A stretch of DNA of 39,002 bases from an uncultured Desulfosporosinus sp. (lineage in GTDB: Bacteria > Bacillota > Desulfitobacteriia > Desulfitobacteriales > Desulfitobacteriaceae), in assembly GCA_927405585.1 (NCBI GenBank), contig CAKMJS010000034.1, forward strand, positions 1 to 39,002, in the 5' to 3' direction. The notes beneath the pieces were generated by a model. That model was not told the origin of the DNA, made no database searches, and saw only the letters and a list, made by a program, of their open reading frames with translations. Below, piece after piece: positions 22,073 to 22,533 of the stretch. A program made the translations under genes and the position numbers. Each line of letters starts with the position of its first letter. The stretch's first letter is position 1.

Positions 22073-22102
22073 GATAATCTCCTTTCAATCTTAAAATTAT
22101 AA

Positions 22103-22200
22103 AAGTCTACGGCTCATCCCACTTAAGGGACGAAAGCCGTAGACTTCCGCGTTACCACCCATTTTGGCCAACCTTGGCCCTCTCAAAAAAGTACAGCATA
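22103..22200 (-). promoter_or_regulatory. Second, Stem I-less T-box antiterminator/terminator module
   Basis: A hairpin GGCCAAGG/TTGGCC (Stem III-like) is followed by the T-box core GGGTGGTAACGCGG (22147-22160). A long terminator stem follows (22103-22146, AAGTCTACGGCT pairing with AGCCGTAGACTT) with T-rich sequence after it. Only about 40 bases separate it from the first terminator, so there is no room for a Stem I with specifier loop. It lies directly before the aroF start. Confidence 0.85.
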
Positions 22201-22238
22201 TCAAACTCGCATTTGTCCAAGTTTCGTCTAGGTATAAC

Positions 22239-22500
22239 AAAAAACTCCTCATCCCTGAAGGGACGAGAAGCTCTATCTCGCGTTACCACCCGACTTTTGG
22301 CCAAAAGGCCACTCGACAAAGGTACGGGAATGACATCCGATACCTCCTTCCTGTTAACGGGGAAGAACCGTCCTAGCCTACTTGAATTCGTTCAGCCGGC
22401 AGCTCGGGAGGGAACTTCACCTACCACTACGCATAGAAGAGTTTTCAGTCGAGACTCTTCCTCCCTGAAAGGTAATAAATAGCTTACTTTTCTCCGTCTT
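22239..22500 (-). promoter_or_regulatory. T-box riboswitch controlling aroF
   Basis: The full element contains a Stem I region (about 22384-22480, GGGAGG pairing with CCTCCC and TTCAG with CTGAA), Stem III (TGGCC-tttt-GGCCA), the T-box core GGGTGGTAACGCG (22279-22291) and a terminator hairpin (22245-22270) with six Ts. A GAA-TTC-A sequence just 3' of the upper Stem I helix gives TTC (22384-22386) as specifier, that is phenylalanine. The UGGU bulge would pair with a tRNA ending ACCA, which fits Phe or Tyr but not bacterial Trp (G73). Specifier assignment is by eye. Confidence 0.88.
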
Positions 22501-22533
22501 CGCTTTTAAAGAATGTATTTAGTTATTTATTAT

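Follow-up and report, generated by a model that had tools for sequence, protein, structure and literature searches.

One tRNA-reading domain before two terminators in an aroF leader of Desulfosporosinus: a strand-exchange model for partially tandem Phe T-boxes

How can a single tRNA-reading domain govern two terminators? The question is raised by the leader of aroF in a contig of an uncultured Desulfosporosinus sp. (CAKMJS010000034.1), of which we analysed a stretch of 39,002 nucleotides, hereafter the window. T-boxes with duplicated terminator-antiterminator elements were reportedly described by Vitreschak et al. in 2008 (RNA 14:717), and the earlier note on this DNA, made from the sequence alone, had mentioned such a class in a general way. 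The class also appears in a 2020 review, under the name of 'partially tandem T-boxes', with a mode of action given there as unknown (PMC7583486). The window leader likewise has one Stem I and two serial antiterminator/terminator units. It differs from the class, as described, in that the repeat takes in one strand, the 3' strand, of a connecting helix, the 5' strand of which occurs only once, and covariation supports an exchange of strands.

In the present study, we examined the anatomy of this leader, its occurrence in relatives, and the pairing of the shared strand. We propose, with a probability of about 0.63, that the leader is a Phe-specific, transcription-terminating T-box in which one sensor would serve two successive modules by exchange of a helix strand.

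Anatomy and specificity of the leader

The aroF leader occupies positions 22509-22101 of the minus strand and contains the tRNA-reading part once and the stop/go decision point twice (Table 1). A search with Rfam RF00230 found a single full T-box at 22509-22256 (103.4 bits, gathering score 93, model positions 1-219), and the search of the whole genome returned the same match. The stretch 22260-22123, searched alone, gave a 5'-truncated T-box match of 32.3 bits that was confidently aligned over Stem III and the antiterminator only; thus, a second Stem I is absent. The two cores and two terminators that the earlier note had placed in series were located, each T-box sequence being followed by a terminator-like hairpin with a U-tract, and the single Stem I with a duplicated antiterminator/terminator was borne out by the covariance search. 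The note had also argued that the second unit left too little room for a specifier stem, giving about 40 bases; we count 58 between the first U-tract and the second Stem III. The segment 22256-22073 folded better than shuffled sequences (z -5.15; 0/200 as good). A further model, R1, which covers the 3' strand together with Stem III and the antiterminator and was trained on 21 tandem-type segments with both window copies included, matched 22197-22127 at 79.2 bits, a sequence that belongs to its own training set. The regulated gene is the DAHP synthase-chorismate mutase fusion that the note had named.

Table 1. Positions of the leader elements and of the regulated gene in the window
Feature	Position	Strand	Basis
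Stem I of the sole complete T-box (tRNA-reading domain)	22402-22503	-	limits from the RF00230 structure line
Specifier UUC (Phe) within GAA-G-UUC-C	22412-22414	-	Rfam alignment position; invariant across 26 aligned leaders; 67/67 by regular expression
Stem II and Stem IIA/B	22347-22399	-	Rfam alignment and alignment inspection; CGG/CCG and CUUC/GAAG pseudoknot by eye
Shared 5' strand AGGUAUCGGAUGUCA, single occurrence	22331-22345	-
Copy 1 3' strand UUCCCGUACCU	22320-22330	-	pairs with the 5' strand, P 0.998, in transcripts ending before copy 2
Copy 1 Stem III	22299-22310	-	Rfam alignment
T-box sequence 1 (22291-22279) and antiterminator 1	22260-22291	-	sequence and Rfam
Terminator 1 with U-tract	22239-22270	-	sequence, fold
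Copy 2 3' strand UUGAUAUGCUGUACUU, predicted displacer of 3' strand 1 from the shared 5' strand	22189-22204	-	duplex -11.9 kcal/mol; P of pairing 0.996; forced states -106.1 vs -103.0
Copy 2 Stem III, with GAGAGG just before it	22166-22180	-
T-box sequence 2 (22160-22148) and antiterminator 2	22127-22160	-	sequence; truncated Rfam match; R1 match
Terminator 2 with U-tract	22101-22144	-	fold
Regulated gene, DAHP synthase-chorismate mutase fusion, 375 aa	20945-22072	-	Pfam DAHP_synth_1 8.2e-79, CM_2 3.7e-17

The leader belongs to RF00230 with the specifier UUC and with UGGU in both copies, and a tRNA-Phe gene of the genome has the anticodon GAA and the discriminator base A, which fits UGGU of copies 1 and 2. 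The position of UUC agrees with the frame preferred by TBDB, 2-4 bases ahead of the end of the specifier bulge (PMC7778990). The specifier type GAA-G(G)-UUC was found by regular expression in all 67 tandem leaders analysed. Phenylalanine tRNA as the ligand, which the earlier note had proposed, is therefore supported by the specifier together with the anticodon and discriminator base, and its reading of the UGGU bulges is consistent with them. The GAA-TTC-A motif on which it had also relied has to be given up, since that motif sits at 22389-22383 in Stem II, varies among relatives, and is separate from the specifier.

The architecture was compared with other serial systems. Two complete Stem I units, which define a fully tandem T-box, were not found in the window leader by the covariance search. 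Fully tandem T-boxes, described for trp operons in PMC12452182, also place two serial decision points on one leader; there, unlike here, each unit has its own Stem I. Our leader L161 is of this kind, with two full-length Rfam T-boxes of 108.5 and 116.5 bits, and G003:C1:1528640/1528948 is a further example. In the pseudo-cooperative tandem riboswitches, as presented in PMC9481103, the same ligand is read twice before expression, as we propose here, but by complete independent sensors; the window leader has one sensor for two expression platforms, and a second sensor domain was not found in it.

Occurrence among relatives

An AroF relative is encoded in 59 of the 60 genomes searched, the genome of the window included. 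Among 50 upstream regions of such genes (the window and 49 fetched regions), 27 had two T-box cores in series by regular expression, and L134 is a 28th tandem region with an altered first core; the tandem is thus not a chance arrangement. Within the genus, 23 of the 28 relatives searched have the tandem leader, as does the window genome (24 leaders in all), and it recurs in other families of the phylum. One aroF leader, L138 in genome G034, has a discriminator and a terminator ahead of the gene, with neither Stem I nor Stem II seen by eye and no Rfam match at the gathering score; it is apparently a decayed tandem leader.

The window genome also has a paralogous aroF, encoding a 91% identical protein, that is preceded by a single T-box instead. 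By eye, the specifier is UGG (Trp) in 16 of the 17 aligned leaders of this paralog. These leaders (L094 and 16 others, group B) have a conserved element after the terminator, GGAACGUGCAGAG...CCCGCAAAUU...AAUUUGAGGGAGG, with GUGCAGAG in 16/17. Pairing of CAAAUU with AAUUUG in this element could mask the Shine-Dalgarno sequence, possibly as a second layer of control.

With R1, more tandem pairs were found in the class (75 genomes) and in the phylum (398 genomes), among the matches listed. This survey is biased to Phe leaders because R1 was built from Phe leaders and includes the letters of the 3' strand. In 12 genomes, chosen since most had already shown tandem pairs in the class survey, at least 15 partial tandems with modules less than 260 bases apart were found, one of them a triple. 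Tests of 15 proteins encoded behind partial tandems gave DAHP synthases, prephenate dehydratases, substrate-binding proteins and one each of chorismate mutase, sodium:solute symporter and M24 peptidase. Tandem Phe T-boxes occur in many families of the phylum; a search of the plasmid collection gave no match.

In L145 and L199 (G013:C246, reverse strand), which precede an M24 peptidase gene, three serial discriminators share a single Stem I and a single 5' strand. The third discriminator has a T-box sequence, shows no evident terminator, and reaches the Shine-Dalgarno region (by eye). A weaker pairing of the copy 3 strand with the 5' strand is possible as well (-5.1 kcal/mol).

We had considered that partially tandem T-boxes might be confined to Phe leaders. 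This idea was dropped on account of L189 (G034:C1:2971253-2971542), upstream of an aminotransferase class V gene (serC-like by eye). There, downstream of a T-box whose specifier by eye is Ser, stand another discriminator, degenerate in part, and another terminator. As L189 is without the shared 5' strand, strand exchange is not the only way in which partially tandem leaders function.

The shared strand and its two partners

A hairpin, 5'-GGUAUCGG...CCCGUACC-3', separates Stem IIA/B from the first Stem III. In tandem leaders, the 3' strand of this hairpin alone recurs, as CNGUACY, before the second Stem III, and this copy 2 strand is complementary to the single 5' strand together with its loop. 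In 44 of 47 leaders, no site in the leader's own linker was as good a partner for 3' strand 2 as the 5' strand. A local 5' partner in the linker was considered and rejected, as it surpassed 95% of shuffled linkers in only 2/47, which is the chance level. The copy 2 helix was at least as stable as the copy 1 hairpin in 37/47 leaders and in 20/20 leaders of the hold-out set described below. The spacing between the 3' strand and the purines that precede Stem III is alike in both copies, with a median of 5 in copy 1 (65 leaders) and 4 in copy 2 (66 leaders).

The letters of the hairpin were absent, by eye, from the eight other T-boxes of the window genome whose cores were compared, and the Trp T-box (L009) has a different hairpin at that place (by eye). 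Some single T-boxes of the same class have the hairpin with letters that differ and compensate each other, such as GGAUAUCGG..CCCGUAUCC in L174 (by eye). Three transcriptional T-boxes with a Phe specifier by eye (L185, L200 and L202) have, as here, a GGUAUAAGG..GUACC hairpin before Stem III; each gave one module match, against two in the window leader.

The linker has features of its own. Most same-genus leaders contain a hairpin, AAYUCG[ACAAAYR]CGAGUU with a conserved 7-base loop (22224-22203, minus strand, in the window), which inspection by eye did not show in L136 and L137. For this reason, and because no specifier loop is evident and the T-box model is not confidently aligned there, the idea that the linker holds a reduced second Stem I was rejected. 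A leader peptide rich in aromatic codons (ATG CTG TAC TTT TTT ... TGG TAA in the window) was also rejected, as the ATG and the frame are missing in many same-genus leaders (by eye). In five Phe T-boxes of periplasmic-binding-protein genes (L151, L152, L153, L157 and L158), the linkers contain GGCCAYGGAUGGCC-like palindromes, some of them repeated (by eye).

The complementarity was examined by a swap test, in which the 5' strand with its loop was paired with the second 3' strand of its own leader or of other leaders (5000 swaps, one leader per clade). The 47 leaders were placed by our own grouping in 19 clades: the 24 same-genus leaders formed one, the five periplasmic-binding-protein leaders another, L154 and L155 a third, and 16 were taken singly. 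Some of the singly taken clades share a family, for example L147 and L148, and swap tests correct for relatedness only in part. The leader table was made automatically and set by hand for seven leaders (L087, L134, L145, L146, L150, L152 and L159). Leaders left out of the 47 were L087 (copy 2 degenerate, 25 bits), L149 and L141 (the same leaders as L014 and L018, respectively), L135 (the contig begins inside terminator 1), the fully tandem L161, L189, and six that by eye were decayed, deleted or recombined (L138, L139, L140, L143, L160 and L162). By eye, L160 without the T-box sequence of copy 1 and L140 without terminator 1 are apparent natural deletions, and L143, close to the end of a contig, may have arisen by recombination between copies.

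In the 47 leaders, the full strands gave -13.44 with their own partners and -11.38 with swapped ones, and 0/5000 swaps were as good. With the cores removed and one G-C pair left, the values were -4.39 and -2.57 (z -4.27; 0/5000). The controls gave z -0.17 (2117/5000) for the 21 nt upstream, z +0.63 (3638/5000) for Stem III-2 and z -1.70 (307/5000) for the reversed strand. Within the genus of the window (24 leaders), the covariation was not significant (own -3.21 vs swapped -3.10; 1293/5000 as good); the upstream control there even looked stronger than the own pairing (112/5000) and the reversed control gave 289/5000. Either the strands hardly vary within the genus, or the exchange is weaker there.

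As the idea of strand exchange had arisen from the discovery set, a hold-out set was made, consisting of 20 leaders from 11 families. The loci were picked for two module matches, and the rule was set before they were read. Each has one full-length Rfam match (E up to 1e-5), and the gathering score was exceeded in 14/20. The 5' core was sought 14-90 nt upstream (20-90 in the preset rule). The rule chose the wrong site in L226 and L228 and missed by a few bases in L216; all three leaders were kept in the 20-leader test and re-anchored on RTATCGG afterwards. With the core removed, own partners gave -6.43 and swapped partners -3.44 (z -6.04; 0/5000), and the controls gave z +1.84 (4849/5000) upstream, z +0.52 (3456/5000) for Stem III-2 and z -0.03 (2385/5000) reversed. 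With one leader per family (11), 9/5000 swaps were as good, and 0/5000 when the 5' strand was anchored on RTATCGG.

Among individual leaders, the contiguous pairs past the internal mismatch number 12 in L221-L223 and 10 in L209. Within the core, GGAUA in the 5' strand of two leaders from different families is met by UAUCC in both copies, and GAGUA in three leaders of one family is met by U at the matching site in both copies; mismatches to the core occur in 3/67 copy 2 strands and 8/67 copy 1 strands (CACCT, CACTC and TGCCT). The copy 2 extension is no closer to the 3' side of its own copy 1 than to that of others (between 1423 and 2748 of 5000 as good); the complementarity is thus not a relic of recent duplication. 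The anatomy, the single Stem I, the Phe specifier and a conserved, covarying alternative pairing are shown computationally.

The predicted order of folding was then calculated for the RNA itself, without tRNA, Stem I-II, tertiary structure or kinetics. In transcripts ending before the copy 2 strand, hairpin 1 had P >0.5 in 59/67 leaders and was not dominant in 8/67; in transcripts ending just past that strand, the exchanged helix had P >0.5 in 65/67, the window included. In the window, P is 0.998 for hairpin 1 before copy 2 and 0.996 for the exchange after it, and the forced states are -103.0 (hairpin 1) and -106.1 kcal/mol (exchange). Of the exceptions, L133 is predicted to retain hairpin 1 and L134 is clear for neither state; L147 has a local GGUAC/GUACC alternative (by eye). 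In 33 of the 67 leaders, the 21-base extension alone was shuffled; the median P of exchange, 0.996 before, was then 0.409, and the window value was 0.23. When the core of copy 2 was reversed, hairpin 1 regained P >0.5 in only 6/33 leaders (0.837 in the window), so other structure also competes with hairpin 1. In L160, where one core is left, the 3' strand that remains is the partner of the 5' strand (-23.6 kcal/mol).

The strand-exchange model and its alternatives

In the model that we propose, the sensor comprises Stem I, Stem II and Stem IIA/B, and two modules follow, each of which would sense aminoacylation and carry a terminator. The helix right after Stem IIA/B, with its 5' strand present once and a 3' strand before each Stem III, would link the sensor to the active module. 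The 3' strand of copy 1 would pair first, and the choice between antiterminator 1 and terminator 1 would be made. If the polymerase passes, the 3' strand of copy 2 would emerge, pair with the 5' strand and its loop, and expel the 3' strand of copy 1. The first module would then be looped out, and the second Stem III and antiterminator would come to the same place relative to the tRNA held on Stem I, which would be read a second time. As the spacing of the second Stem III matches that of copy 1, the second discriminator would take the place of the first beside Stem IIA/B. Transcription of the gene would require that uncharged tRNA-Phe be read at each of the two points; leakage should thereby fall and the response become sharper. 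An antiterminator 1 with bound tRNA might resist the exchange.

In general terms, each new module would bring a fresh 3' strand that captures the only 5' strand of the sensor, and the sensor would be moved along the transcript. That a single tRNA held on Stem I is thereby queried twice (three times, perhaps, in L145) seems to us an even chance. We infer the exchange in the cell, the handing on of the same tRNA and the effect on the response. The earlier note had left it between one domain serving both decisions and two tRNAs acting; the predicted pairing and the swap tests favour one domain.

If the exchange is real, it might instead free the first tRNA, and the same Stem I would take up a new tRNA for the second reading. 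The structural evidence is the same for this reading, and our computations do not separate one tRNA from two in turn; we nevertheless consider it rather unlikely, since the re-binding must fit into the time in which 23-182 bases of linker are transcribed. The tight hold of long Stem I T-boxes on their tRNA also counts against a reset of this kind.

Alternatively, the first tRNA could stay on Stem I and antiterminator 1 while a second uncharged tRNA binds discriminator 2 through its NCCA end alone. The absence of a second Stem I, together with an intact T-box sequence and Stem III purines in discriminator 2, would suit such binding. UGGU, however, suits any tRNA with discriminator base A, so that specificity would be lost, and the action of two tRNAs would leave unexplained why 3' strand 2 has a conserved and covarying pairing with the 5' strand. 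We judge this explanation unlikely.

Copy 2 could also be a second terminator that merely lowers the background, read without tRNA, with the exchange incidental. Terminator 2 is strong by folding, but the T-box sequence, Stem III and flanking purines of copy 2 are, by eye, conserved at least as well as those of copy 1, and a plain terminator needs none of these; we regard this as very improbable. That 3' strand 2 resembles 3' strand 1 by descent from a duplication only, without pairing to the 5' strand, is scarcely credible to us: the CNGUACY core common to both copies and the lack of significant covariation in the genus of the window would agree with it, but the complementarity runs past the core, is leader-specific and was replicated in the hold-out set, and the extension of copy 2 is unlike that of its own copy 1.

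The strand-exchange model would explain how one tRNA-reading domain governs two terminators, and it names the exact bases involved. The architecture class is known; our results suggest that the shared 5' strand with a repeated 3' strand, and with it a testable exchange mechanism, is new. Among the matches listed in a search of titles and the beginnings of abstracts in the open-licence literature, none concerned a shared strand or strand exchange in T-boxes. If true, the model would add a new principle of switching and would account for the working of many partially tandem T-boxes, and the arrangement would be a natural design for one RNA sensor reused with several outputs. The Phe tandem recurs upstream of genes for DAHP synthases, prephenate dehydratases and transporters, and may therefore be a main point at which aromatic amino acid synthesis is controlled in the phylum.
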